This document shows, piece by piece, positions 1,405-15,830 of a stretch of DNA of 64,000 nt (within the stretch, counting starts at the first letter, position 1; every line of letters begins with the position of its first letter). The position numbers and the translations under genes are program-made. Source of the DNA: Nesterenkonia sphaerica (GTDB taxonomy: Bacteria; Actinomycetota; Actinomycetes; Actinomycetales; Micrococcaceae); NCBI RefSeq assembly GCF_005771565.1, contig NZ_VAWA01000003.1, positions 1 to 64,000 of the forward strand, in the 5' to 3' direction. Under the pieces are notes generated by a model that saw only the letters and a program-made list of their open reading frames with translations, was not told the origin of the DNA and searched no databases.

Positions 1405-2739
1405 TCAGATGTCCTTTGCATCCGGGACTTGACCCCACTCTTTCCCACGGCCCACAGGCGCGACATCTGCTGCCACGGTGGCTGGCTCAGGAGCTTCGTC
1501 GGGCACAGTGACCCCGATGCCATTTTCGTCGATTAGACCATCTGCGCGGTCCTGCATTTCGAGGCGGCGCGCGTATGGCAAGGCCAGCCAGAACGCGAAG
1601 CCCACGGCCAAGAGTCCGCCGGCCAGCTTGCCGATCACCATGGTGACAATCATGTTCGGCTGGAACGTAGCGGTGAAGGCGAGATAGTCCCCCACGGCGA
1701 ATGCCGCGCAGACCATGAAAGCAATGGTCAACACTTTGTCCTTCGGAGGCATGAGACGAACCAATTGGAACAGTGCCACCGCATTGGCCATAGTCGCCAG
1801 GAACCCTGCAATCCCGGCTTCAGAGATGCCGATTCTGCGGCCGGCCACCTGCAGCGGAGCCGCCAGCAACTTCCGAATCATGTAAATGAGGGGGAATGCC
1901 CCGGCAAGCATGACGGCGATGTAACCAACAATCTCCAAGGCGCGGAACTGATCCTCAGCATCAGCAATGAATGGCGCCAGGGGCCAGCCACCGAAGATCG
2001 CCGAGAACGCTCCGGTGAAGTATTCAGCCACAGAGAGTGCCACAGCAGCCGTTGTCACGATTTGCAGGAATCGCCCGAAGTACAGGAACGCGGCAATCAT
2101 TTTCTGGGTGAAGAACCGTAGCGCCAAAGAGAGCAGGCCCATCATGATCACCAGCGGTATCAGGTTCAGCAAAACCTCCCCATAACTGAGATCAAAGGGG
2201 CGCGTCCCGGGGCCTGTCGCCTCGACTCCCTCGCGCAGCGGAACACCGCTCTGGAGCAGAATAATGGCCATAAACAGCGAAGCAAATGGGATGGCCAAGA
2301 AGCCTGACATGACACCGAGCGCTAGGTACTTATGGTCCCGCCGCTCCAGGATGGACAGACCCACCGGAATGCAGAAGGCGATCGTTGCCCCTGCCGTCAG
2401 ACTAACCGTAAAGGCCAGAATCCACGCTCCGTGTCCGTCGGCTACCTCGTATGCCAAGTGATAGGCGCCGAGGTCACTAGGAATGAAGGTGCTGGTGGCG
2501 ATCGCTGCATCCGAATGCATCGCCGAATATACGGGCGCAACGACAGCATTGATCGCAGGAACAATAACGGGAATGAGCGTCATAATGCCCGCGATGGGTA
2601 TAAATATATGACCCATCATCAGAATGCCTTCTTTGAATTCCAGTCCAAGCTGGGAACTGGGGCGGACTATATGCGCTCCCGCTCCGATCAGAAGAGAGAT
2701 CATCATTATGTAAATGATGACTTCACCAAGGAACTCCAT
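1405..2739 (-). CDS. eutH: Ethanolamine permease EutH-like membrane protein
   Basis: The 444-residue protein is almost entirely hydrophobic, with about ten to eleven predicted membrane helices and a hydrophilic C-terminal tail of roughly 55 residues. It resembles EutH, the facilitator that admits ethanolamine at low external concentration in eut systems. The ATG chosen here is preceded by CGGAGG at good spacing; an in-frame ATG 33 bases upstream lacks one. No other eut gene (ammonia-lyase, microcompartment shell) is in the window, so the protein probably supplies ethanolamine or another small amine to enzymes encoded elsewhere, or serves the adjacent divergent amine-oxidation operon. The family is recognised from overall sequence, not from a single motif. 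Its separation from eut genes and closeness to IS elements suggest acquisition or rearrangement. Confidence 0.8.
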   Translation of the reverse strand: MEFLGEVIIYIMMISLLIGAGAHIVRPSSQLGLEFKEGILMMGHIFIPIAGIMTLIPVIVPAINAVVAPVYSAMHSDAAIATSTFIPSDLGAYHLAYEVADGHGAWILAFTVSLTAGATIAFCIPVGLSILERRDHKYLALGVMSGFLAIPFASLFMAIILLQSGVPLREGVEATGPGTRPFDLSYGEVLLNLIPLVIMMGLLSLALRFFTQKMIAAFLYFGRFLQIVTTAAVALSVAEYFTGAFSAIFGGWPLAPFIADAEDQFRALEIVGYIAVMLAGAFPLIYMIRKLLAAPLQVAGRRIGISEAGIAGFLATMANAVALFQLVRLMPPKDKVLTIAFMVCAAFAVGDYLAFTATFQPNMIVTMVIGKLAGGLLAVGFAFWLALPYARRLEMQDRADGLIDENGIGVTVPDEAPEPATVAADVAPVGRGKEWGQVPDAKDI

Positions 2740-2822
2740 GAGTGTGACCTCCGTCGCCGAATGGCACGCCACTTACCCATGGTCCTAGCGGCGTGATCAA
2801 GATGAGAATCACCAAAACCTCT

Positions 2823-2842
2823 GTGTTTGGTTGATAAAACAC
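2823..2842. promoter_or_regulatory. Inverted repeat GTGTTT-N8-AAACAC, candidate operator
   Basis: A perfect 6-base inverted repeat with an 8-base spacer lies about 84 bases upstream of the eutH start, in the eutH/P450 divergent region. It could bind a dimeric regulator such as the GntR protein of this island. There is no direct evidence for that pairing. Confidence 0.35.
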
Positions 2843-2856
2843 TAAAGCCTGTCCGG

Positions 2857-2872
2857 TGTGATTGAGGTCACG
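2857..2872. promoter_or_regulatory. Crp/GlxR-like site TGTGA-N6-TCACG
   Basis: TGTGATTGAGGTCACG matches the actinobacterial cAMP-receptor (GlxR/Crp) consensus TGTGA-N6-TCACA at nine of ten conserved positions. It sits between eutH and the P450 operon and could provide carbon catabolite control of either gene set. Confidence 0.5.
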
Positions 2873-2874
2873 TT

Positions 2875-2885
2875 TTCGTAACGAA
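2875..2885. promoter_or_regulatory. Short palindrome TTCGT-A-ACGAA
   Basis: A perfect palindrome with a single central base lies three bases after the Crp-like site. Its position suggests an operator, but the arms are only five bases long and the occurrence may be fortuitous. Confidence 0.25.
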
Positions 2886-3011
2886 TTTGCCGACAGTGTT
2901 GTAGATAGTCCGCGCCTTCTGTGGTTCCCACCAAGAAATGACCCGGCTGGCCGAGTACCAAGTGGAGAAATTCTCATCGGAAGGGTCGGCAAGACGGCGT
3001 CTGAGGCGCAC

Positions 3012-3039
3012 TTGCCAAAACATCTATTTCTGTTAGTAT
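3012..3039 (+). promoter_or_regulatory. Putative sigma70-type promoter of the P450 operon
   Basis: TTGCCA (3012-3017) and TAGTAT (3034-3039) are separated by 16 bases in a locally AT-richer stretch, about 105 bases upstream of the P450 ATG. The downstream leader contains a second, weaker Crp-like half-site pair at 3054-3069 (AGTGA-N6-TTACA), a position at which a bound regulator would block transcription. Confidence 0.45.
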
Positions 3040-3053
3040 TTCTGCTCACATGG

Positions 3054-3069
3054 AGTGATGCAGGTTACA
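3054..3069. promoter_or_regulatory. Second, weaker Crp/GlxR-like site
   Basis: AGTGATGCAGGTTACA matches TGTGA-N6-TCACA at eight of ten conserved positions. It lies 15 bases downstream of the putative -10 element, so binding here would be expected to repress. Confidence 0.3.
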
Positions 3070-3144
3070 CAACGGCTGGACTCGCAGAAACAGTGGCTCA
3101 GGAGCTATCACTCATAACGACAACCCTGATGAGGGAGAACCGGC

Positions 3145-4374
3145 ATGCCGACCACAACCGACACCGTCCCGTACCTGGACATTTCAGCTTCGGACTTCGC
3201 CATGGCCTCGGAGGCCGTCCGGGACGCCCGCGATGCACACTGGTTTGCGCGGACCAATTACGGCATCGCCGTCCTCTCCTACGAGGACGTCTCCACACTG
3301 ATGAAAAGTCCCCGCATGATCCAGGGCTCAGCCAGATGGCCTCAGCACCACGGTGTCCACGACGGTCTCTTCCACGATTGGTGGGCCAAGAACCTTCTCG
3401 TCCTCGAAGGGGAGGACCATCATCGGATCAGACGCTTGGCGAACCCGGCGTTCTCTCCGCGCAAGATCAAGGCACTGGGGGGTCGGTTCGACGAGCTGGC
3501 CCACGAGCTGATCGACCAATGGATCGACAATGGGGAGGTCGAGTTCGTCGAGGGGTTCGCCGCGCCGTTCGCCACCCGCGTGCTGTGCATCATGCTCGGC
3601 ATTGATGAGAAGGAGTGGCCCACCATCAACCGGTTGGCGTCCACCGTCGGTGCCGCACTGGGCGTGAACATCAAGGAAGAGATTGGCGCGATTGATGCCG
3701 CACTAGAAGAGCTGCACCGGTATGCCGACCAGCTGATCTCCGACCGGCAACAGAACCCCAAAGACGACTTTGTCACGCGACTGGTGGACGCCAACCGTGA
3801 CGGCGACAGCCTCAGCGATGCCCAGCTGCAGAACCTCCTGGTCCTGCTGATCTTCGGAGGCATGGACACCACACGGAATCAGCTGGGCCTGGCGATCCAG
3901 TCATTCATCCGCCAACCGCACCAGTGGGAGCTGCTGGCCGAACGCCCGCAGGAGCTGGCAGCCCCTGCAGTGGAGGAGTCACTGAGAGTCAACCCCACCA
4001 CCCGATGGGTCACCCGCGAGGTGGTGGAGACCTTCCAGCACAAGGATCTCACTTTCTGCCCGGGCGACACGGTCCACATGTTCACCTATGCATCCGGGAC
4101 TGACCCAAAAGTGTTCACGGACCCGACCCGGATCAACCTGGAGGCCGATCGCAAACCGCACTACGCTTTCGGCGGCGGAATTCACCACTGTCTGGGTCAC
4201 TTTGTTGCTCGCTCCGATATGCAGGCCGCCCTGCCGGCGCTGGCCACGCGCCTGACGAATCTCCGCATTGTTGCAGGCGGCGACGAATGGATGCCCGACT
4301 CCGGCAACACCGGACCCGTCCGGCTGAACATCGCGTTCGACAAGCGCGCCACCGTTACAGCGAATTCAGGCTGA
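3145..4374 (+). CDS. Cytochrome P450, probable secondary-amine monooxygenase (CYP151-like)
   Basis: The 409-residue soluble bacterial P450 has the oxygen-activation helix motif FGGMDTT near residues 236-242, the ExxR pair E278/R281, and the haem-binding loop FGGGIHHCLG with thiolate ligand Cys349. It should insert oxygen into a substrate using electrons from the ferredoxin and reductase encoded just downstream. The P450-3Fe-4S ferredoxin-reductase-glutamine-synthetase-like gene order is as I recall it from the mor (morpholine) and pip (pyrrolidine/piperidine) loci of mycobacteria, whose P450s belong to CYP151. Hydroxylation next to the ring nitrogen of a cyclic amine is therefore the leading hypothesis. 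The start has a good site, GAGGGAG, before the ATG. The exact substrate is inferred, not shown. Confidence 0.85.
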   Translation: MPTTTDTVPYLDISASDFAMASEAVRDARDAHWFARTNYGIAVLSYEDVSTLMKSPRMIQGSARWPQHHGVHDGLFHDWWAKNLLVLEGEDHHRIRRLANPAFSPRKIKALGGRFDELAHELIDQWIDNGEVEFVEGFAAPFATRVLCIMLGIDEKEWPTINRLASTVGAALGVNIKEEIGAIDAALEELHRYADQLISDRQQNPKDDFVTRLVDANRDGDSLSDAQLQNLLVLLIFGGMDTTRNQLGLAIQSFIRQPHQWELLAERPQELAAPAVEESLRVNPTTRWVTREVVETFQHKDLTFCPGDTVHMFTYASGTDPKVFTDPTRINLEADRKPHYAFGGGIHHCLGHFVARSDMQAALPALATRLTNLRIVAGGDEWMPDSGNTGPVRLNIAFDKRATVTANSG

Positions 4375-4432
4375 CCCCTTGCCCACCGTGCCACCCCGAA
4401 CAGCTGCCAACCCTCTGGAAAGGACAACTCGC

Positions 4433-4627
4433 ATGAAGGTCTGGGTCGATAGGAACATCTGCGACAACCACGGACAGTGCGCTATCGCGGCACCGGAAAA
4501 CTTCTGGCTCGACGCCGAGGGCGTGCTCCAGTATAAGGAGGACTTCCCGGACTCCGATCTGGAATACATAGAAGACGCCATGGACGTCTGCCCCGTTCAG
4601 GCGATTTTCCTCAAAGGTGAGCAGTGA
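4433..4627 (+). CDS. 3Fe-4S ferredoxin, electron donor of the P450
   Basis: The 64-residue acidic ferredoxin has only three cluster cysteines in the canonical spacing: Cys10 and Cys16 (CDNHGQC) and Cys53 followed by Pro (DVCPVQA). The central position of the first motif is His instead of Cys, the signature of [3Fe-4S] ferredoxins that serve actinobacterial P450s. It begins 59 bases after the P450 stop with a GGAAAGG ribosome site. An in-frame ATG lies further upstream, but the ferredoxin fold starts at MKVWVD. It probably shuttles single electrons from the following reductase to the P450. Confidence 0.92.
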   Translation: MKVWVDRNICDNHGQCAIAAPENFWLDAEGVLQYKEDFPDSDLEYIEDAMDVCPVQAIFLKGEQ

Positions 4628-4633
4628 TCTGAG

Positions 4634-5899
4634 GTGAGCTATCAAGGTCGCGGGCGCCGCATCGTCGTCGTCGGAGCATCGATGGCGGGGCTGCGCACCG
4701 CTGAGCAGATACGCAGCGCGGGCTGGCACGACGAGGTGGTCCTCATTGGCGACGAGGCCCACCCGCCCTATAACCGGCCGCCGCTGTCCAAAGAGGTCCT
4801 GAGTTCTCAACAGCACCCCGAAGAAGCACTCTCCGCTGTGCTTCTTCGGCAACGCGCCTCAGCTGCATCTTTCACGTTCCGCCTTGGACAGTCGGTAGCA
4901 GCGTGCAACCTTGCAGGACAGCGCGTCACCCTCTCCACCGGGGAGCGCCTGAGTTACGACGGGCTCGTGGTCGCCACGGGCATCCGTCCCCGCCGTCTGG
5001 CGGTGCCGGGGCCCACCAGTGGGCGTTACGTGGTGCGGACGCTCGAGGATGCGCTGGCTCTGCGGCAGCAGCTGCGGCCTGGAACGAAAGTGCTGGTCAT
5101 CGGCTGCGGCTTCATCGGTTGCGAAGTGGCTGCGAGCGCTCTCAGTCTCGGCTGCGACGTGCAGCTAGTGGAAGGCTCCCACGGTCCCATGCACCGGGCG
5201 CTGGGAGCCACCGTGGCTACGGCCATGCGCCACTGGCTCACCCGGCGGGGGTTGCAGATCCACGCAGGCCGCGGCGTCGTCGAGTTTCTGGCCCACTTCC
5301 CTGACCGGCTCAACCAGGTCAGCGGAGCACGACTCGACGATGGCACCAAGCTGGAGGCAGAAATAGTGGTGGAAGCAGTCGGGTCGCTGCCGAACGCCGA
5401 ATGGCTCTACGGCAATAGCCTCGACCTCTCCGACGGCGTACTGGTTGACGAACACCTGCGCGTTCGCGGCGCGCAGCACGCGGTGGCGGTTGGGGACATT
5501 GCCCGCTACCCCGACCCGTGGACCGGTGGAGTCCCGCGACGGGTCGAACACTGGCAGGGCGCGATTGACACCGCGAAGACCGCTGCCCGCAGCCTGGTCG
5601 CGGGGCTCACCGGTGGACAGGTCCCACCACCGTACGCCTCAATACCAAGTTTCTGGAGCGACGTCTTCGGCACCCGGGTTCAAGGGCTCGGCGTACCTCA
5701 CTTCGGCACCGCCACCGAGGTCCTCGAAGGCAGCCTGGAGACCCCGGAGGCGGGAGTCGCCATCGCCTACACCCGGGAAGGTTACGTGGTGGGCCTGGTG
5801 ACAATCGCTTTGCCGCCAGCGCGGCTGATGGAGCTGCGCCCACACCTAGGACATCCGCTCTCCGACCTCCTGAGCCCCCTGCAGCTGACCACCACCTGA
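4634..5899 (+). CDS. FAD-dependent NAD(P)H:ferredoxin reductase
   Basis: The 421-residue protein has two Rossmann dinucleotide motifs, VVVGASMAG near residue 12-19 for FAD and VLVIGCGFIG near residue 154-162 for NAD(P)H, plus the PYNRPPLSK segment and the AVGDIA FAD motif of the putidaredoxin-reductase family. It reduces the adjacent ferredoxin. The start is a GTG seven bases after the ferredoxin stop; the nearest purine-rich stretch overlaps the end of the ferredoxin gene, so translation may be coupled. Length and domain order are normal for the family. Confidence 0.9.
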   Translation: MSYQGRGRRIVVVGASMAGLRTAEQIRSAGWHDEVVLIGDEAHPPYNRPPLSKEVLSSQQHPEEALSAVLLRQRASAASFTFRLGQSVAACNLAGQRVTLSTGERLSYDGLVVATGIRPRRLAVPGPTSGRYVVRTLEDALALRQQLRPGTKVLVIGCGFIGCEVAASALSLGCDVQLVEGSHGPMHRALGATVATAMRHWLTRRGLQIHAGRGVVEFLAHFPDRLNQVSGARLDDGTKLEAEIVVEAVGSLPNAEWLYGNSLDLSDGVLVDEHLRVRGAQHAVAVGDIARYPDPWTGGVPRRVEHWQGAIDTAKTAARSLVAGLTGGQVPPPYASIPSFWSDVFGTRVQGLGVPHFGTATEVLEGSLETPEAGVAIAYTREGYVVGLVTIALPPARLMELRPHLGHPLSDLLSPLQLTTT

Positions 5900-5916
5900 G
5901 CAGTTCAACCATCGAG

Positions 5917-7416
5917 ATGGGAAAAATCATGACCACCACCAACATTGACACCGATCTCCCGACCGGCCGTGAGCCCCTGATTGACCAGCTGCACGAGGCC
6001 ACCCGGACCGCAGGCCAGAGCCTTACCAGCCTCTACCAGCACCGGGCGCACACAGCGCTGACTGACCGCGACGCTTTCCACCGGCACCAGAGCGCGAACC
6101 TCACTGAGGAAACGGTGGATCGGATCACGGAGGAGATTGCACGCTCAGGGGTAAAGTACATCTATTACACGATCCCCACACTGAAATCCCGCACCGTTGC
6201 CAAGATGGTGCCCGCCAAGCACGTGGTGCGAAATCTGGAGCGCGGCATCAATTTTCACCGCACGGCGATCTCCGACCTGCAAAACGATATCTTCGGCAAT
6301 CTGATCGGTGGAATCGGCGCCAAAGAGTTTGTGGCGCTGCCGTTGCCGGACACGTTCCAGAGGTACCCCTGGGACCGGGAAGTGGGGCGCATGTTCTGCA
6401 CTACCTATGAGCCTCCGCACCTGCCGGAAGTCGGTGGACGGCCCCTGGGCACCGACTCCCGCGCGCACCTGATGCGCACCCACCAGCTGATGAAGGACAC
6501 CTTCGGGCTCACCATGAAATCCGGGACTGAGCCGGAGATGACATGGTACGGAAAATCCATTGAGCCGGTGCTCATTCCCGGGCACTCCCCCGCCTACCAG
6601 GTGGAAAACCTGGAGGGGATGCGGCCGATCTACAAGCGGATCCAGGAGTACGCCACCGCGCTGGGTTTCGACATGATCGAGACCGACTACGAGGATCAAG
6701 GCCAGATTGAATGCAACTGGAACTTCGACGACGCCGAGCTCACCTCCGACCGGTTGGTGACCTATCGCCAGATCTGCTCACAGGTCGCCCGCGAATTTGA
6801 TGTGGAGGCCAGCTTCATGCCCAAGCCGTACCTCGGCTCCATGGGAAATGGCTGCCACCACAACATCAGCCTATGGGACACCGAAGGCAACAATGCCTTC
6901 GTGATCGACGGGGTGGAGGAGCTGCACATGTCGCAGCTGGGCCGCTGGGCCATCGGAGGCATCCTCAAGCACGCCCCAGGCATGATGCTGGTGATGTCCA
7001 GCACCGTGAACTCCTATAAGCGGTTCTGGGATCCGGGGCAGTTCGCCCCCGCACGGGCCGACTGGGGACTCGACGACCGGGCCAGCTCGGTGCGCATCTC
7101 TGCCAACGGCCGCGCCGAAATGCGCATACCTGACGCCTCCGTCAACCCGTACCTCTCCCATTCGCTACTACTGGCGGCCATGGCCGACGGTATCGGCAAC
7201 CGGATTGCGCCCCCCGCTCCCGGGTCCTCCGGCCAGAACCTGCCGATGACGCTGGGGGACGCCCTGGATGCTTTCAAGGCCGACGACTACATCCAGAGCA
7301 CGCTGCCCGAAGACCTGGCCGCATTGTACTTGGAGCTCAAGACCGACGAATGGGCTCGCTACTGCGGGGCCGTGACCGAATGGGAGTACAAGCAGTACTG
7401 GCAGGCCATCCCGTGA
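5917..7416 (+). CDS. Glutamine-synthetase-like gamma-glutamyl amide ligase
   Basis: The 499-residue protein has the catalytic core of glutamine synthetase: a metal-binding Glu in GTEPEMTW, EDQGQIE, the GNGCHHNISLW loop around residue 312, NSYKRFW near 365 and AEMRIPDAS near 400. It belongs to the divergent non-GlnA types that join glutamate to amines (gamma-glutamylmethylamide, gamma-glutamylpolyamine or anilide ligases). In this operon, the two downstream gamma-glutamyl hydrolases make an ATP-dependent gamma-glutamylation step likely, either tagging the primary amine or the ring-opened product of the P450. A second in-frame ATG lies 12 bases downstream and may be the true start. The acceptor amine is not deducible from sequence. 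Confidence 0.82.
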   Translation: MGKIMTTTNIDTDLPTGREPLIDQLHEATRTAGQSLTSLYQHRAHTALTDRDAFHRHQSANLTEETVDRITEEIARSGVKYIYYTIPTLKSRTVAKMVPAKHVVRNLERGINFHRTAISDLQNDIFGNLIGGIGAKEFVALPLPDTFQRYPWDREVGRMFCTTYEPPHLPEVGGRPLGTDSRAHLMRTHQLMKDTFGLTMKSGTEPEMTWYGKSIEPVLIPGHSPAYQVENLEGMRPIYKRIQEYATALGFDMIETDYEDQGQIECNWNFDDAELTSDRLVTYRQICSQVAREFDVEASFMPKPYLGSMGNGCHHNISLWDTEGNNAFVIDGVEELHMSQLGRWAIGGILKHAPGMMLVMSSTVNSYKRFWDPGQFAPARADWGLDDRASSVRISANGRAEMRIPDASVNPYLSHSLLLAAMADGIGNRIAPPAPGSSGQNLPMTLGDALDAFKADDYIQSTLPEDLAALYLELKTDEWARYCGAVTEWEYKQYWQAIP

Positions 7417-7447
7417 GCCCGGGCGCACCGAAGGAGACCGGGTCTTG

Positions 7448-8164
7448 ATGCGAACCCTGACGCTGGCCTGCATTGACTCACAGGCCCCACCTCTGTTCAA
7501 CCTCTCCCCCGACGGCGGCCGCACCCGCACCGGCTACGAGCCTGAGGTGGCGCAGCTGGTGGCTGACCAGCTGGGTGCGGAACTGAGGTGGGTGATGACC
7601 TCTTGGGACAATATGATCCCCATGGTCCAGCGCCACCAGGCCGACGCCGTGTGGTGCGGACAGGGCATCATCCCCTCCCGTCAGGAACAGGTGAACTTCA
7701 CTCGGCCCTATGCCATTTTCGATGAGTCCGTGCTGGTCCGCGCCGGAGACCCCGCGCGCGGACCAGAGGACTTCTCCGGGCGGCGGGTCGCGGCCATTGC
7801 GGGCAGCGCCAATATGCGCCTGGCGCAAACGTTTCCCGGTGCCATCCCGGTTCCGTTCACCGCCTCCGACGACGTCTTCGGCGACATGATTGCCGCAGTC
7901 CGCGACGGCAATGTCGACGCGATGGTCGACGACGACGTGGTCACTGTGCCGCTGGGCGACGACCCAGATTTTGCGATCGCCTTCACCGCTCCCACCCAGA
8001 ACGCATGGGGTGTGGGGGTCGCCAAAGACCGGCTCGAGGTGCTGAATGCCCTGGATGGAGCGCTGAGCAGTGTCATCAATTCCGGAGGGCTTGCACAGAG
8101 CTGGGCCCGGTGGATGCCGCAGCTGCCGTTCCCGGCGGACCTCCATACCGGGAGGCGCTCATGA
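7448..8164 (+). CDS. Solute-binding-protein-fold (SBP_bac_3) protein without signal peptide
   Basis: The 238-residue protein has the fold of polar amino-acid binding proteins: GYEPEVAQLVADQLG near the N-terminus, the family signature SRQEQVNFTRPY near residue 80, and the hinge/ligand segments typical of type-2 periplasmic binding proteins. Unlike transport receptors it has no signal peptide or lipobox, beginning directly with the first beta strand (RTLTLACID), and there is no permease or ATPase gene nearby. It therefore probably works in the cytoplasm, either as a ligand-binding carrier or as an enzyme that evolved from a binding protein, as cyclohexadienyl dehydratase did. AAGGAG is 11 bases before this ATG and 8 before an alternative TTG. 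The next gene overlaps by ATGA. Confidence 0.7.
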   Translation: MRTLTLACIDSQAPPLFNLSPDGGRTRTGYEPEVAQLVADQLGAELRWVMTSWDNMIPMVQRHQADAVWCGQGIIPSRQEQVNFTRPYAIFDESVLVRAGDPARGPEDFSGRRVAAIAGSANMRLAQTFPGAIPVPFTASDDVFGDMIAAVRDGNVDAMVDDDVVTVPLGDDPDFAIAFTAPTQNAWGVGVAKDRLEVLNALDGALSSVINSGGLAQSWARWMPQLPFPADLHTGRRS

Positions 8165-8913
8165 GCATGGTCCCCAACGCGAGACGGCCGCGCATCGGCG
8201 TGCCGGCCATGTGGTCGGAATCGGTCAACGGGCTGCGCTACTCCGGGTCAGTAGTGGCCAATGCTGTCCTGGAGTCCATTGTCCGGGCGGGGGGTCAGCC
8301 GGTGATGATCTTTCCTGGCGCGGATTTTCACGACTGGGACCTGCTTGACGGCCTGGTGCTGCCCGGCGGTTCAGATATCGCGCCGGGTCGCTACGGGCAA
8401 GAGCCCGGCCCCCACCTGAGCGTCTCCGATTACTCCGGACAGGACGACGCCGACGCCCGGGCGATCCGCGCCGCGGAGGCCTTGGGAATCCCAGCGCTGC
8501 TGATCTGCCGTGGGATGCAGCTGTGGAACGTGGAACGCGGAGGCTCGCTGATCCAGCACTGGCCCAGAGAGCCCCAGCAGCATGTCAGCACGGTGCACGA
8601 CGTCGCCATCACACCAGGGACGCTACTGTCTCACGCACTGCAGGGATCCACCAGTACTGACGTATCCAGTTATCATCATCAGGCGGTGGGCGCACTTGGA
8701 GAGGGACTTCGGGTCGTGTCCCGCGCCGGGGACGGCTGCGTGGAAGCGCTAGAGGACCCCGAGCATCAGATCATCGCCGTACAGTGGCACCCAGAAGACC
8801 GGGCGCACCACCATCCAGGCGACCACGCCCTGTTTGCCTGGATCGTTTCTGCCGCTGAGGATCAGCGGCGCACCGCCCGCCACACCATGCCGACCCATCA
8901 GGAGGTCCCCTAA
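8161..8913 (+). CDS. Class I glutamine amidotransferase-like gamma-glutamyl hydrolase (peptidase C26), first copy
   Basis: The 250-residue protein has the C26/PuuD architecture: the oxyanion segment LPGGSDI, the nucleophile elbow LLICRGMQ with catalytic Cys, the SYHHQAV segment and the C-terminal QWHPED bearing the catalytic His and Glu. PuuD-type enzymes hydrolyse gamma-glutamyl-GABA to glutamate and GABA. Here it should remove the glutamyl group installed by the synthetase-like enzyme. Its ATG overlaps the preceding stop by four bases, so it is translationally coupled. The N-terminus starts with a short non-conserved tail before RPRIGVPAMW. Confidence 0.85.
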   Translation: MSMVPNARRPRIGVPAMWSESVNGLRYSGSVVANAVLESIVRAGGQPVMIFPGADFHDWDLLDGLVLPGGSDIAPGRYGQEPGPHLSVSDYSGQDDADARAIRAAEALGIPALLICRGMQLWNVERGGSLIQHWPREPQQHVSTVHDVAITPGTLLSHALQGSTSTDVSSYHHQAVGALGEGLRVVSRAGDGCVEALEDPEHQIIAVQWHPEDRAHHHPGDHALFAWIVSAAEDQRRTARHTMPTHQEVP

Positions 8914-8915
8914 TA

Positions 8916-9728
8916 ATGCCGAGCTCCCACAACCTGGTTCTCACGCGTGCGGAGGTCATGCCGGACCGCCCTGCCCCGGCAGAGGCGGACGTGGACATCG
9001 CGGTGGTCGCCCAGTTGAACCTGCCGCAGCAGAGCCGGGAGACCCACGGACTGCTGCGCAGGTTCACCACTGTCACCCTGCAGTCCCTGCAGGACCTGGG
9101 AGCGCGCGTGCACCTGATTGATGTCACCAGCGAGGAGCCGGACTTCGAATTGCTCGACCGGTCCCACGGAGTGCTCATGCTCGGCGGCGGGGACATTGAT
9201 CCCAGTTTCTACGGCCACAGCGGCGAGATCGCCAACGAATACGGCCGCGACCCCGTCTCCGACACCCGCCAGCTGGCGATCACGCGCTGGGCCATCGACA
9301 CCGATGCGGCACTGTTGGCCATCTGCCGAGGATCCCAGATACTAAACGTTGCCTGTGGCGGGACCATCATCCCGGATATTCAGCCCTCGCATCTGCACCA
9401 CGGTGCCGAAGGGGAGCCCAGCTTCCTGGATGAGACGCTGACTCTGCTTCCGGGGACCAAGGTGCGCAACATCTTCGGCCGGGAGCGACTCACCGTCCGC
9501 AGCGGCCACCATCAGGCAGTCGACGCCTTGGGCGCTGGCCTCCGAGTGACCGCCGTGGCGGACGACGGCGTGGTGGAGGGTACTGAACGGATCGACAATA
9601 CGTGGATCCTCGGCGTCCAGTGGCACCCCGAGGACGATGCCGGATCTGAACAGGACCGGATCGCGCTGTTCAACGCCTTCCTTGATGAGGCCCGAACTCG
9701 GGCCAGCCTCACTCCCAGTAGAGGCTGA
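8916..9728 (+). CDS. Class I glutamine amidotransferase-like gamma-glutamyl hydrolase (peptidase C26), second copy
   Basis: The 270-residue protein repeats the C26 plan: LMLGGGDIDP, nucleophile elbow AICRGSQILN, SGHHQAV and VQWHPEDD. It begins two bases after the first copy's stop. The two copies are clearly divergent, including an N-terminal extension of about 25 residues here, so they are unlikely to be a recent duplication and may act on different gamma-glutamyl intermediates or as a heteromer. The gene end overlaps the end of the convergent Cache-domain gene by 20 bases. Confidence 0.83.
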   Translation: MPSSHNLVLTRAEVMPDRPAPAEADVDIAVVAQLNLPQQSRETHGLLRRFTTVTLQSLQDLGARVHLIDVTSEEPDFELLDRSHGVLMLGGGDIDPSFYGHSGEIANEYGRDPVSDTRQLAITRWAIDTDAALLAICRGSQILNVACGGTIIPDIQPSHLHHGAEGEPSFLDETLTLLPGTKVRNIFGRERLTVRSGHHQAVDALGAGLRVTAVADDGVVEGTERIDNTWILGVQWHPEDDAGSEQDRIALFNAFLDEARTRASLTPSRG

Positions 9729-10422
9729 GCGTGGGCACCTGCGTCGGCAGCTCGAGGTGGTGGCCACGCTCGGTATTCTGCTCCAGCAACTCCCCGGGAA
9801 GGAACCGCGCCGTCGTCGAACACACGATTCGGCCCTGAGCGCCAAGGAGCACGAACCGCCCTGAGACCGTCTTCGCCGCGCGCATCATCACCTTTTCGAG
9901 GGTGTTGACTTCAATGTCAGAACCGGCGACGCCGACGAAGCCGTGCTCATCGGCGAATGGCACCGCAGCGGTCAAGATGTACTCGTCGACGCCGAGGAAG
10001 TCCACATAGGGGGTGGTGAGCTTCGGGGCGCCCGTCGATTTCGGCTCAGCAAACCAGGGCAGCTGGAGGAAGTCGTAGTAGTCTCGAGAGTGTTCGTCGA
10101 AGTCAAAGCCGTACGCCTCCGGGGCGCCGCGTTCTCCCCGCACCCGCCACGGGATGAGCTGCTCAGGGGAGACAATCCGGTCGGGGTCGAAGATGATCCC
10201 CGCCCCGGAGACCAGCGGATGCTGCTCCAGGAGCTGGTCAGCCTCGGCCTCCATCATGCGCAGCTGATCAGGTTGGAAGGGTCCCCAACGCCGCTCATGG
10301 GCGTTCTCCGCGCCGAGGCGTTGCCGCACCAGGGAAGCGATACGGTTCAGATGGTCGAACAGTCGGTCCAGGTCTGCGGCAAGGTCGCGCGCGAAGCCGC
10401 GGATTTCTTCTTCAACGGACAT
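9709..10422 (-). CDS. Soluble Cache (PDC) sensor-domain protein
   Basis: The 237-residue protein has an N-terminal amphipathic helical part followed by a Cache/PDC-like sensor region with the segments PYVDFLGVDEYILT and VGVAGSDIEV that are typical of these ligand-binding folds. There is no membrane segment or signal peptide, which is unusual because Cache domains are usually extracellular. The chosen ATG overlaps the end of the upstream GntR gene by 11 bases and is preceded by AAAGGA, so the two are translationally coupled; another ATG lies 9 bases upstream. Its likely role is to sense a small ligand in the cytosol and act with the GntR regulator, but no output domain is present. Confidence 0.7.
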   Translation of the reverse strand: MSVEEEIRGFARDLAADLDRLFDHLNRIASLVRQRLGAENAHERRWGPFQPDQLRMMEAEADQLLEQHPLVSGAGIIFDPDRIVSPEQLIPWRVRGERGAPEAYGFDFDEHSRDYYDFLQLPWFAEPKSTGAPKLTTPYVDFLGVDEYILTAAVPFADEHGFVGVAGSDIEVNTLEKVMMRAAKTVSGRFVLLGAQGRIVCSTTARFLPGELLEQNTERGHHLELPTQVPTLSLYWE

Positions 10423-11236
10423 CAGTGTCATCCTTTGAGCCCTCATGCAGGGCGAGAGTGAGCTTCTGGTCAATCATGTGGAAGGTGTCGTCCTGAATGC
10501 GTTGCGCCGCTGCGCTGACCGCCGACTCACGGTCGCGCCGGTGCAGGGCCTCAATCATGTGCGTGAAGTAGGGCATCACCATCTCCTTACTGCGCGGGTT
10601 CCCCAGCGGGGCCCACAGCAGTTCGGAGGATTCCAGCTGCAGGTGCAGCTGGGCGATCAGCAGGCGCCGGGACTGCGCACTGACCGCAATCTCCAACCAG
10701 ATCCGGCTGTCGGCCCGTGCCAGCGCGTGGGCCCCTTCTGCGGCGTCGAAGGCTTCGACCAGGCGCTCAATGGCGTGGAGGTCGGAGTCGACCGCGCGTG
10801 AGGCAGCCAGCTGGATCGAGGCAGCCGAGACTGCCGCCCGGTGATCACCCATGTCGCGCAGCTCCACCACGCTCATACTCTCCAGCCGCTGGCGCATCAG
10901 CGGCACCGAGGACGCCGGCAACGAGACCACAAACGTCCCGCCGCTGCGGCCCCGGCGGGTCTCGACGAGTCCCTTGGCACGCAGTGCTGAGAGGGCCTCG
11001 CGAACTGTTGTCGGCGAAACGCCGAAGGACTCGGCCATCTCCACCTCGCTGGGGAGCCGATCACCTTCTCTGAGCAGGCCTAAAGACATCGAGTCCCGCA
11101 GCCGGGTCACAATCGCCTCGGCCCGGTCAATCTCCGGCAGGGCGCGGTAGATGTGCTGCCGGAGACCTTGCGACCCACCGGCCCCGGATCCGGGCGGTAT
11201 GCGCTGGGAGGGATCGTCAACGTAGATCACACCCAC
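10412..11236 (-). CDS. GntR-family transcriptional regulator, FadR/FCD type
   Basis: The 274-residue protein has an N-terminal winged helix (GDRLPSEVEMAESFGVSP, then TTVREALSALRAKGLVETRR, about residues 58-100) and a helical FCD ligand-binding domain after residue 115. It should be a dimeric, ligand-responsive regulator of this amine island. It lies between the SSA dehydrogenase and Cache genes on the same strand. A comparable GntR gene (pipR) is known beside pip P450 genes in mycobacteria. The first 35 residues are not conserved-looking, so the start could be a GTG two codons downstream or further in. Confidence 0.88.
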   Translation of the reverse strand: MGVIYVDDPSQRIPPGSGAGGSQGLRQHIYRALPEIDRAEAIVTRLRDSMSLGLLREGDRLPSEVEMAESFGVSPTTVREALSALRAKGLVETRRGRSGGTFVVSLPASSVPLMRQRLESMSVVELRDMGDHRAAVSAASIQLAASRAVDSDLHAIERLVEAFDAAEGAHALARADSRIWLEIAVSAQSRRLLIAQLHLQLESSELLWAPLGNPRSKEMVMPYFTHMIEALHRRDRESAVSAAAQRIQDDTFHMIDQKLTLALHEGSKDDTDVR

Positions 11237-11276
11237 CCCCTGGCCCCACCAGCGGATGCTGGGTACATCTCCCGGG

Positions 11277-11288
11277 CGTCGGCCGACG
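11277..11288. promoter_or_regulatory. 12-base perfect palindrome CGTCGGCCGACG
   Basis: This self-complementary sequence lies 40-50 bases upstream of the GntR start, between the dehydrogenase gene and gntR. It may be an autoregulatory operator or part of a weak hairpin; with high GC content a chance palindrome is possible. Confidence 0.3.
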
Positions 11289-11338
11289 GGGTGGAATTCT
11301 CACAAACTAAGAGTCTCATACGCCCACCAGGGTTGCCC

Positions 11339-12706
11339 TCAGACTCTGCGGACGAGTTTCTTGTTGGCGAACTCCTCGATCCCCAGCGGGCCCAATTCCC
11401 GGCCGAACCCTGAGCGTTTGACACCCCCGAAGGGCAGGTTCGCCTGCGAGTCGGTGTTGCTGTTGATGAAGACCATGCCCGCCTCCAACTGCTGTGCCAC
11501 CTGATCCGTCTGGGTCGGGTCAGAGCCGAAAACCGCTGCCCCCAAGCCATAGGGAGAGTCGTTGGCCAACTCCACCGCCGCGTCTGCATCGGCCACTTTG
11601 TACACCATCACCACCGGGCCGAACGCCTCCTCGTGCCAGAGCCGGCAATTGCGGTTGAGGTCGGTCAGCAGCGCCGGAGTGAGGTAGAACCCCTCCTTCG
11701 TCGGCTGGCCCCCAGCCCGCAGCACCGCACCATTGGCCACGGCGTCGTGGAGCTGGTCAATCACGTCGGCTCTGGCTGCGGCGGAGGACAGTGGGCCCAG
11801 CGACGTGTCCGGCTGGGCCGGGTCCCCGAGCGTGACCCGCTCCAGGCGTCGCTGAACCTCGTCGACGAACTGATCATAGGCAGCATCCACCACAATGAGT
11901 CGTTTAGGTGAGGTGCAGGCTTGGCCGGCGTTGGAGAGTCGGCCTGCCACCGCCTGCTTGGCCGTGGCTGCGACGTTCTCGGCGTCGAGGACAATGAAAG
12001 GGTCGCTGCCGCCCAGTTCCAGGACGACCTTCTTCAGGTGGCGGCCGCACTGCTCTGCCACGATGGCCCCAGCGCGCTCACTGCCGGTCAGCGACACTCC
12101 CTGCACGCGCGGGTCGGCGATGACCTCGGAGAGCTGTTCGTGGGTGGCGAAGATGTTGATGTAGGCGTCGTCGGGAAGCCCTGCCTGGCGAAGGATGTCT
12201 GCGATGGCCAAAGCCGACTGTGGGCAGTTGGCGGCGTGCTTGAGCAGTATCGTGTTACCCAGCGCCAGGTTCGGGGCGGCGAAGCGCGCCACCTGGTAGT
12301 GAGGGTAGTTCCACGGCATGATGCCCAGCAGTACGCCGGTGGGCTGCAGGTGGATCTCCGCCGAACCGGACTCCACCGCCAGCTGTTGGGGCGCCAAGAA
12401 CTCCTCGGCATGATCGGCGTAGTACTGAAAGATCTCCGCCGAGACGGCGATCTCGCCCTTGGCCTGCCTTATGGGCTTGCCCATCTCCAACGTGATCAGC
12501 TCGGCCAGCTCGTGGGCGCGCTCCCGGTAGATGGCCGCGACTCGGTTCAACACCGCGATCCGTTCCGCCAGCGGGGTCGCCGCCCAGCTCCGGTACCCCT
12601 GATGCGCGGCCGCGATTGCCTCCCTGACCTGCGCATCACTGGCAGTCGGGTAGTCCGCAGTGGCCTGTCCGGTCGAAGGGTCGACGGTTTGGTACATCGT
12701 TGACAT
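11339..12706 (-). CDS. NAD(P)-dependent succinate-semialdehyde dehydrogenase
   Basis: The 455-residue aldehyde dehydrogenase has the cofactor segment MPWNYPHYQ, the general base Glu in VLELGGSDPF, the catalytic Cys in NAGQACTSPKR and the terminal motif GRELGPLGIEEFANKK found in the GabD1-type succinate-semialdehyde dehydrogenases. It oxidises succinate semialdehyde to succinate, so it would complete breakdown of GABA or a C4 amino-aldehyde formed from an amine such as pyrrolidine or putrescine. No GABA transaminase is in the window. GGAGG lies just before the ATG. It is the first gene of the minus-strand operon that includes gntR and the Cache gene. Confidence 0.85.
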   Translation of the reverse strand: MSTMYQTVDPSTGQATADYPTASDAQVREAIAAAHQGYRSWAATPLAERIAVLNRVAAIYRERAHELAELITLEMGKPIRQAKGEIAVSAEIFQYYADHAEEFLAPQQLAVESGSAEIHLQPTGVLLGIMPWNYPHYQVARFAAPNLALGNTILLKHAANCPQSALAIADILRQAGLPDDAYINIFATHEQLSEVIADPRVQGVSLTGSERAGAIVAEQCGRHLKKVVLELGGSDPFIVLDAENVAATAKQAVAGRLSNAGQACTSPKRLIVVDAAYDQFVDEVQRRLERVTLGDPAQPDTSLGPLSSAAARADVIDQLHDAVANGAVLRAGGQPTKEGFYLTPALLTDLNRNCRLWHEEAFGPVVMVYKVADADAAVELANDSPYGLGAAVFGSDPTQTDQVAQQLEAGMVFINSNTDSQANLPFGGVKRSGFGRELGPLGIEEFANKKLVRRV

Positions 12707-12798
12707 GGAGCCTCCAGAGGGTGAGGAACGATCATCCCCAGCGCGCGGCGGGTCAGCCCATTACTGGCCGAGACGCACTGACTTCCGGTCTGCACCGA

Positions 12799-12816
12799 AT
12801 GTTACCAAGATAACAT
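12799..12816. promoter_or_regulatory. Perfect inverted repeat ATGTTA-N6-TAACAT, candidate operator
   Basis: A perfect 6-6-6 inverted repeat lies 93 bases upstream of the dehydrogenase ATG in the 150-base gap to guaB3. It is a strong candidate for the GntR or another dimeric regulator. A flanking ATCT-N6-AGAT pair (12815-12828) overlaps its right edge. Confidence 0.5.
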
Positions 12817-12857
12817 CTAAAACCAGATCTTTGGGTGAAAGTGCGGCGCCTTTATCG

Positions 12858-14006
12858 TTACATCTGGAGACCGCGGCCCACCGGAGAGACCGTGGCGTCC
12901 ACCCGCTGGAAGGACTTGAGGTCCACGTATCCGCAGGACGCCATCGCATGCCGCAACCCGCCCATAAGGTTGGACGATCCGTCGGTGTGGTGGCCCGGGC
13001 CCAGCAGCACCTCTTCGAGTGAAGCGACCGTGCCTACCCGCGTGCGGTGGCCGCGCGGGAAGTTCGGGTGAACCGCCTCCAATCCCCAATGCCAACCCTG
13101 ACCGGGGGCATCCTCCGCACGGGCCAAGGCGGCACCGAGCATGACCGCGTCAGCGCCCATCGCCAACGCTTTGACAATGTCCCCGGAGGAACCCAGTCCA
13201 CCGTCAGCAATGACGTGCACATAGCGTCCGCCGGATTCGTCCAAGTAGTCCCGGCGCGCGGCGGCGATATCACTGATGGCGGTGGCCATCGGTACCCGGA
13301 TGCCCAAGGCGCGGTGCGTCGTCGTCGCGCTCCCGCCGCCGAACCCCGCCAGCACGCCGGCTGCGCCGGTGCGCATCAGGTGCAGTGCAGGCGTGTAACC
13401 GGCTGCCCCGCCGACGATGACCGGGACGTCGAGCTCATAGATGAATTCCTTGAGGTTCAGCGGGTCCTGCGACTCGGACACATGCTCCGCGGAGACGGTG
13501 GTGCCGCGAATGACAAACATGTCGACCCCGGCATCGACCACCGTCTGGTAGAACTCCTTGGTGTTCTGCGGGGTAAGAGAACCCGAGACGACGACGCCGG
13601 CCTCGCGCATCTCTGCCAGCCGGGCAGTGATGAGTTCGGCCTTGATCGGCTCCGCGTACAGCTGCTGCATTCGGCGGGTGTTGGCCGGGGAAATCTCCCT
13701 GGCGTCCAAGTGCGCAATTTCCTGCAGCACCGGCTCCGGATCCTCATAACGGGTCCAGAGGCCTTCCAGATTCAGCACACCCAAACCGCCGAGCTGCCCC
13801 AGCGCGATCGCCGTCGCCGGTGACATCACCGAATCCATTGGAGCCCCGATGACCGGCATCGAGAAGGTGTAGGCGTCAATCCGCCAGTCCAGGGAGACAT
13901 CCTGCGGGCTGCGGGTGCGGCGCGAGGGGGTGAGGTTGACGTCGTCGAGCGCCCAGGCGCGGCGCCCGGACTTTGCTAGACCGATCGGGATCTCATTCAC
14001 TGTCAT
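12858..14006 (-). CDS. guaB3: GuaB3-type IMP dehydrogenase family protein
   Basis: The 382-residue TIM-barrel protein resembles IMP dehydrogenase but lacks CBS domains and has threonines in place of the catalytic Cys loop (GSATTTHRALG), as in actinobacterial GuaB3 proteins. The flavin/nucleotide phosphate-binding DGGLGSSGDIVKAL and ADAVMLGAAL segments are intact. GuaB3 enzymes have been linked to GMP reductase-type activity. The start follows AAGGA closely. It lies six bases after guaB and is probably cotranscribed with it. Confidence 0.92.
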   Translation of the reverse strand: MTVNEIPIGLAKSGRRAWALDDVNLTPSRRTRSPQDVSLDWRIDAYTFSMPVIGAPMDSVMSPATAIALGQLGGLGVLNLEGLWTRYEDPEPVLQEIAHLDAREISPANTRRMQQLYAEPIKAELITARLAEMREAGVVVSGSLTPQNTKEFYQTVVDAGVDMFVIRGTTVSAEHVSESQDPLNLKEFIYELDVPVIVGGAAGYTPALHLMRTGAAGVLAGFGGGSATTTHRALGIRVPMATAISDIAAARRDYLDESGGRYVHVIADGGLGSSGDIVKALAMGADAVMLGAALARAEDAPGQGWHWGLEAVHPNFPRGHRTRVGTVASLEEVLLGPGHHTDGSSNLMGGLRHAMASCGYVDLKSFQRVDATVSPVGRGLQM

Positions 14007-14012
14007 ACGTCC

Positions 14013-15830
<1,818 letters not shown>

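Follow-up and report, generated by a model that had tools for sequence, protein, structure and literature searches.

A CYP151-like cytochrome P450 locus with gamma-glutamylation genes and two receptor-fold proteins in Nesterenkonia sphaerica, a candidate cassette for amine catabolism

The closest described relatives of the locus reported here are the mycobacterial pip and mor loci (PipA/PipR and MorABC, of the CYP151 type) and the bioI/pipA loci of Gulosibacter molinativorax. Characterized relatives act on morpholine, piperidine, and pyrrolidine, which are common industrial amines. Gulosibacter P450s are ∼52 to 53% identical to M. smegmatis PipA and to MorA of strain HE5, on molinate one of these P450s and its reductase were up by >6 log2, and overexpression was also named for glutamine synthetase (GS) transcripts (PMC9477822). 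In M. smegmatis, piperidine and pyrrolidine metabolism is under a FadR-like regulator (PMC2018728). The parts of this literature available to us, to which all our citations refer, leave open the steps that follow oxidation and the role of the GS-like gene. Here, we describe a locus at positions 1,405 to 12,706 of a 64,000-nt stretch of Nesterenkonia sphaerica DNA (positions 1 to 64,000 of contig NZ_VAWA01000003.1, forward strand; hereafter, the window), from a host genome assembly of 2.79 Mb in 86 contigs. The locus is most likely a member of the CYP151 mor/pip type of amine-oxidation loci, with good support from kinship and gene content. We consider it fairly probable that it forms an inducible cassette that breaks down a cyclic or secondary amine and adds a glutamyl cap after ring opening. 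A EutH-type transporter stands in it where other loci have an amino acid-polyamine-organocation (APC) permease, and its gene complement is fuller than that given in the available parts of the literature on the mor/pip kind.

The locus contains the following features, among them a substrate-binding protein (SBP) fold and several oxidoreductases that use flavin adenine dinucleotide (FAD) or nicotinamide adenine dinucleotide (phosphate) [NAD(P)]:

1405-2736, minus strand: EutH-type transporter (PF04346, E value 1.9e-101)
2737-3144, no strand: divergent control region between EutH and P450 genes, with conserved blocks at ∼2808-2840 and ∼3030-3065
3145-4374, plus strand: cytochrome P450, CYP151-like (PF00067, E value 2.2e-20)
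4433-4627, plus strand: ferredoxin (Fer4_15; three cysteines, C10, C16, and C53)
4634-5899, plus strand: FAD/NAD(P)H ferredoxin reductase (Pyr_redox_2, E value 2.3e-53)
5917-7416, plus strand: GS-like protein, probable gamma-glutamyl-amine ligase (PF00120/Gln-synt_C, E value 7.6e-68)
7445 or 7448 to 8164, plus strand: type 3 SBP-fold protein (SBP_bac_3; residue numbers count from 7445)
8161-8913, plus strand: C26 gamma-glutamyl hydrolase a (PF07722, E value 3.7e-43; Cys116/His210/Glu212)
8916-9728, plus strand: C26 gamma-glutamyl hydrolase b (PF07722, E value 5.8e-42; Cys137/His237/Glu239)
9709-10422 (start at 10422 or 10431), minus strand: stand-alone dCache protein (Cache domain; probable amine sensor)
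10412-11236, minus strand: GntR/FadR-type (FCD) regulator, PipR-like (PF00392 and PF07729)
11339-12706, minus strand: NAD(P) aldehyde dehydrogenase, semialdehyde type (PF00171, E value 4.9e-137)

A preliminary description of this DNA had placed the P450, a 3Fe-4S ferredoxin, the reductase, the GS-like ligase, the SBP, and two C26 hydrolases in a single run, with Cache, GntR, and dehydrogenase genes facing it. All seven genes of the run were located as it described, and the three facing genes all lie on the minus strand. Intergenic gaps inside the plus-strand run (P450 to hydrolase b, 3145-9728) were −4 to 58 nt, and the start of the hydrolase a gene overlaps the end of the SBP gene by 4 nt. 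The ferredoxin is read as a 3Fe-4S type from its three cysteines. The EutH gene that opens the interval had been left unnamed, and the facing dehydrogenase had been called a succinic semialdehyde dehydrogenase. An aldehyde dehydrogenase is indeed present, but that name is too specific, with the top NCBIfam model (NADP-SSADH) scoring 487.6 bits (cut-off, 730).

Kinship of the P450 and distribution of the cassette

In a tree of 70 rows, the window P450 fell inside a 63-row clade (support, 98/98) of P450s from mycobacteria-like genomes, Gordonia, and Micrococcales, most of them linked to GS genes. Three Nocardioides-type rows lay next outside this clade, and four outgroup P450s were distant. The window P450 is 48 to 56% identical to the mycobacteria-like P450s and 51% identical to that of the Gordonia plasmid pGKT2; P450s with >40% identity are assigned to one family. 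Because it groups with GS-linked P450s from Gordonia and from mycobacteria-like genomes, we regard it as CYP151-like, and here the grouping bears out the preliminary description. The adjoining ferredoxin, reductase, and GS-like genes and the GntR regulator with its FCD domain likewise agree with the mor/pip type. Within the genus, matches at 92 and 89% were found in N. natronophila and N. haasae, where the gene order is the same. The best PDB match was 3p3l, which we take to be AurH. It is important to note that AurH, too, is listed as CYP151A (PMC7369989), so the label "CYP151" alone names no substrate.

It is PMC9477822 that connects the locus to the named proteins PipA and MorA; the direct comparison of the window P450 was with mycobacteria-like relatives. 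In the G. molinativorax bioI/pipA loci, the P450, reductase, electron carrier, and GS genes stand at neighboring locus numbers, as in the window (PMC9477822). The available part of that source does not describe glutamyl capping or roles for an SBP or a Cache protein; our sequence comparison used two Gulosibacter metagenome loci, with P450s 62 to 64% identical to the window P450. On pGKT2 of Gordonia KTR9 (7473-14484 of the stretch compared, L082), an FCD regulator, a Cache protein, the P450, and a GS-like gene stand in a row like that of the window. They are followed by an FAD oxidoreductase and a second P450, presumably XplB and XplA, and that stretch has no SBP or C26 match.

To place these genes in a wider context, a P450-alignment scan of species genomes gave 43 loci, of which 7 had <6.5 kb downstream and were dropped. 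All five of the GS, SBP, C26, Cache, and GntR genes were found near the P450 in 32 of the remaining 36 loci. Taken gene by gene, GS, SBP, and C26 were present in 33 loci each, Cache and GntR in 32 each, APC permease in 31, ferredoxin in 28, the window-type reductase in 21, a close aldehyde dehydrogenase (at least 45% identity) in 15, and EutH in 2. The three loci missing GS are those of Nesterenkonia cremea (L052) and Nocardioides/Marmoricola (L057 and L058); in L028, Cache and GntR were not in the stretch examined. Electron supply also varied, with a different FAD reductase in six loci (L028, L050, L051, L056, L061, and L064) and a flavodoxin in four, as judged from one representative of each scanned by family.

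Among 148 genomes of the mycobacteria-like genus, presumably Mycobacterium, 16 had a P450 match (48 to 56% identity, one partial), and 13 of the 18 listed places were taken for comparison of gene content. GS, SBP, two C26 hydrolases, Cache, and GntR are common to the window and all 13 of these loci, which carry an APC permease where the window has EutH; 10 of the 13 have no close copy of the window reductase. This co-localization, in 32 of 36 and 13 of 13 loci, rules out a chance neighborhood. The suggestion in the preliminary description of a unique merger of two separate logics is not borne out, since the same P450 is already accompanied by GS, SBP, and two C26 genes in the 13 mycobacteria-like loci, and a further GS-like/C26 pair of the host genome stands apart on contig C1 (263.8-265.4 kb).

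Across the phylum, 6 of 396 genomes, the host included, had a P450 match (E value, 1e-70). Two of these (G263 and G280; 49 to 51% identity) carry GS-like and SBP genes, and three others are 35 to 37% identical. SBP matches (E value, 1e-30) were found in 4 and Cache matches (E value, 1e-8) in 7 of the 396. The cassette is thus widespread yet not common, reaching from Micrococcales to mycobacteria-like genomes, with related sets on Rhodobacterales plasmids. On Paracoccus and Ruegeria plasmids (L094 and L084), a related P450 (46 to 49% identity) occurs with two GS-like genes and class 1 amidotransferase or C26-type genes; therefore, the combination of P450 and glutamylation is found in Rhodobacterales as well.

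A different setting was seen in three loci. In N. cremea (L052, 4475-12631), a CYP151-like P450, ferredoxin, and reductase lie inside an EctA/EctB-type cluster, and two Streptomyces plasmids (L081 and L085, ∼2.8 to 12.1 kb) have a like trio in clusters of the same type. These ectoine-type clusters also hold holo-ACP-synthase-like, adenylation enzyme, and diaminopimelate-decarboxylase-like genes, both plasmids add an ectoine synthase, and EctA exceeds its curated cut-off in L052 and L081. Their P450s are 56 to 59% identical to the window P450 and are nested with it in one 9-row clade (100/99). A sister branch of the amine P450s seems to have been recruited into biosynthesis.

Glutamylation enzymes, receptor folds, and transporter

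Among solved structures, the best match to the ligase was a glutamate-methylamine ligase (9qur), with which 7cql, listed as a type III glutamate-ammonia ligase, was tied. At the column of Glu327, which we take to be the catalytic residue of true glutamine synthetases, 51 of 52 loci have a cassette ligase with Phe (Phe376 in the window), and the other has Trp. The four GS paralogues of the host genome have Glu in two cases, Trp in one, and Phe in one, and the Phe-bearing paralogue is the one that adjoins the other C26 gene of the genome. Against the NCBIfam model GGputSyn, the cassette ligase scored 178.6 (cut-off, 650). The Cys/His/Glu triads are complete in both C26 hydrolases of the window and in all 49 best matches for each query, with one protein counted for both queries in loci with a single C26 gene; both hydrolases scored under the cut-off of the NCBIfam gamma-glutamyl-GABA (gamma-aminobutyric acid) hydrolase model. 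Together, the aromatic residue at that column of the ligase and the intact triads suggest that the chemistry of glutamyl capping and release is present.

An amine ligase, an aldehyde dehydrogenase, and a C26 hydrolase with this triad are common to the window and to polyamine gamma-glutamylation of the Puu/GlnA3 type, where PuuB takes the place that the P450 has in the window cassette. No PuuB-type oxidase is among the genes annotated at 1.4 to 12.7 kb. Given the separate GS-like/C26 pair on contig C1, the cassette is probably not the ordinary polyamine route. Among open-licence PMC literature, matches on gamma-glutamylation in morpholine breakdown were unrelated by title and start of abstract.

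The most interesting part of the locus is its pair of sensor folds. The predicted model of the Cache protein (predicted local distance difference test [pLDDT], 90.9) gave 50 listed folds, headed at Z 18.7 to 20.2 by PctD (choline), McpU (putrescine), McpX, 6pzj, TlpQ (histamine; twice), MkcA, 3lib, and PacA. CqsR with ethanolamine followed at Z 18.4, and receptors titled for amino acids at 17.6 and lower. PMC10104139 counts McpX, PacA, and 3lib among amine receptors or targets, describes amine receptors as having lost an Arg and retained an Asp, and includes GntR with the domains of their architectures. In the cassette proteins, the carboxylate-binding Arg of PctA was kept in 1 of 45 and replaced in 44, and both Asp residues, including that at the D173 position, were kept in all 45. 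The window protein thus has the fold, the Arg loss, and the conserved Asp in common with dCache_1AM amine receptors; it differs from them in that neither a membrane segment nor an effector domain was seen and in that its partner is a separate GntR protein. The window GntR is 40 to 46% identical to the GntR genes of mycobacteria-like loci. Six loci from five genomes in the phylum search had a GntR-Cache pair with no P450 match. Four of the six pairs lie beside a polyamine ATP-binding cassette (ABC) system (ATPase above the PotA cut-off), which ties the pair to amines independently; of the remaining two, one adjoins an aldehyde dehydrogenase and an APC permease, and one has nothing obvious beside it. 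The Cache protein is therefore a probable amine sensor that would act inside the cell. For Cache with GntR, gamma-glutamyl, and polyamine, only PMC10104139 fits among the open-licence PMC matches listed.

The SBP model (pLDDT, 90.8) gave 50 listed folds at Z 24.8 to 27.7, mostly titled as amino acid or opine binding proteins. The best was SocA with glucopine (Z 27.7), and rows within 1 Z of it are tied. Arg79 and Asp162-164 were invariant in 49 of 49 proteins. Asp163 aligns with the ligand-binding Asp of AncQR, and we take Arg79 and Asp163 to be the pair that holds an alpha-amino acid. Measured from the ligase stop in 50 loci, the start of the conserved domain lies at −10 to +28 nt, 31 of these loci having a 4-nt overlap, and a conserved CxD motif stands 3 to 4 residues past the domain start. 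Because domain and motif lie so close to the ligase stop, a signal peptide would not fit in these loci, as assessed from the N termini as read and the ligase-to-SBP distances. The host genome's two other members of the family have lipoprotein-type N termini by reading. No ABC transporter gene was found within the cassette. Thus, the protein has the fold and Arg/Asp pair of a type 3 SBP and neither its export signal nor its ABC partners, and possibly it binds the glutamyl (alpha-amino acid) part of an intermediate inside the cell. A strictly obligate pairing of SBP and ligase is unlikely, since a distant actinobacterium has a stand-alone SBP relative (L146, 9504-10376; 53% identical) with no match to other cassette proteins within 20 kb. 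Open-licence PMC literature on cytosolic SBPs with GS-like genes held nothing fitting by title among the matches listed.

We tentatively suggest, as a possibility short of an even chance, that two normally extracellular receptor folds work here as soluble intracellular parts: the Cache protein would sense the amine together with GntR, and the SBP, cotranslated with the ligase, would hold the gamma-glutamyl intermediate, or report it, on its way from ligase to hydrolases.

For the transporter, 30 genomes of the genus were searched for EutH (E value, 1e-20) and the cassette ligase (E value, 1e-100). Both were present in the same 2 genomes and both absent in the other 28; N. natronophila, from another genome collection, has both. 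EutB had no match in the host genome (the E. coli control matched), which rules out a EutH that serves ethanolamine ammonia-lyase catabolism. Given this absence and the co-occurrence with the cassette, EutH is likely the amine uptake part, standing in for the APC permease of other loci. EutH relatives on four plasmids had varied neighbors.

Predicted pathway and competing explanations

By analogy with the characterized relatives, cyclic-amine oxidation is a candidate activity of the window P450. In the pathway we propose, EutH would import the amine, and the P450, fed by ferredoxin and reductase, would hydroxylate the carbon next to the nitrogen, giving a product that opens to an amino-aldehyde. 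For this step, morpholine oxidation is reported for a relative, and we infer the ring opening and the substrate in the window. The GS-like ligase would then link the gamma-carboxyl of glutamate to the amine so freed, as in the Puu route, which avoids ring closure of its amino-aldehyde by glutamylation. Capping would follow ring opening because a free omega-amino-aldehyde would be expected to close to a cyclic imine. The aldehyde dehydrogenase would form the acid, and the C26 hydrolases, whose catalytic residues are present, would remove glutamate to free an omega-amino acid. GabT, encoded elsewhere in the genome, could with an aldehyde dehydrogenase lead to a dicarboxylate. Binding of the gamma-glutamyl intermediate would fall to the intracellular SBP, and sensing of the amine and control of transcription to the Cache-GntR pair, as their folds, residues, and neighbors suggest. 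The conserved complement thus points to two candidate sensors inside the cell and to a pathway that can be tested, with ring opening followed by glutamyl capping.

The preliminary description ended the pathway in GABA and succinate. A GabT above cut-off is present in the host genome, so conversion of GABA to succinate is possible. GABA should nevertheless not be fixed as the product, because genes that suggest glutarate lie beside the cassettes of relatives: a glutarate-CoA-transferase-like gene occurs in 9 of 43 loci and 5 of the 13 mycobacteria-like loci, and an acyl-CoA dehydrogenase in 8 of 43 and 4 of 13 (GabT, 7 of 43 and 2 of 13). One representative each of the transferase and the dehydrogenase fell under curated cut-offs, and the latter is not of a specifically glutaryl-CoA type. 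These genes weakly hint at a C5 product rather than GABA in the relatives that carry them.

A different order of steps, which we judge unlikely, would have glutamate attached first and the P450 then oxidizing the gamma-glutamyl amine in place of PuuB, the oxidase of the putrescine route. The ligase, aldehyde dehydrogenase, and C26 hydrolases would form the remainder of such a Puu-like route, and the cassette has no annotated PuuB-type gene, but the related MorA system is reported to oxidize free morpholine (PMC9477822), and a ring amine would first have to turn into a tertiary amide. N-Dealkylation is also improbable. Here, a linear secondary or tertiary amine would lose an alkyl group to the P450, leaving a methylamine- or ethanolamine-like primary amine for the ligase to capture. 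This route would suit the methylamine substrate of the best solved ligase match, the ethanolamine after which EutH is named, and the choline, putrescine, and ethanolamine receptors among the Cache fold matches. However, characterized relatives act on cyclic amines (PMC9477822), the host genome has no EutB match, and, as a weaker point, the glutarate-suggesting genes near some relatives suit ring opening. That the P450 serves ectoine-type biosynthesis, with the glutamylation genes as a separate unit, is very improbable despite the related N. cremea and Streptomyces plasmid P450s in EctA/EctB clusters, as no ect-type gene is among those annotated at 1.4 to 12.7 kb and the glutamylation core accompanies the P450 in 32 of 36 loci.

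Several points weigh against a cyclic- or secondary-amine cassette with capping after ring opening, the reading we prefer. We infer its substrate, product, and order of steps, and the core gene set leaves the carbon length unfixed. The ectoine-type sister branch means that P450 kinship alone is no proof of amine degradation. Ferredoxin is missing from 8 of the 36 loci, the window-type reductase from 15, and a close aldehyde dehydrogenase from 21 (counts that take in the three loci without the GS core, or two of these three), so these parts are exchangeable. The EutH protein, although over the Pfam cut-off, scored 478 bits against an NCBIfam EutH cut-off of 575. Finally, 9a69 (McpB/McpC, which we take to be amino acid receptors) and 4wy9 reached Z 18.1 in the Cache fold ranking, and with 9a69 at that score the gap between amine and amino acid receptors is narrow.

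Intergenic regions and flanking genes

The conserved blocks in the region between EutH and P450 come from an alignment of three Nesterenkonia species. An operator shared between this region and the one between GntR and the aldehyde dehydrogenase was considered and rejected: one 11-mer with one mismatch was found in the window, and none in the two other species under the same setting. The Cache gene and the end of the GntR gene share 11 or 20 nt, depending on the choice of Cache start. Beyond the aldehyde dehydrogenase, two more minus-strand genes are read as GuaB3 and GuaB. At the contig end, beside EutH, an IS30-type transposase lies at 117-1199 of the window, with only a partial match to the integrase core.

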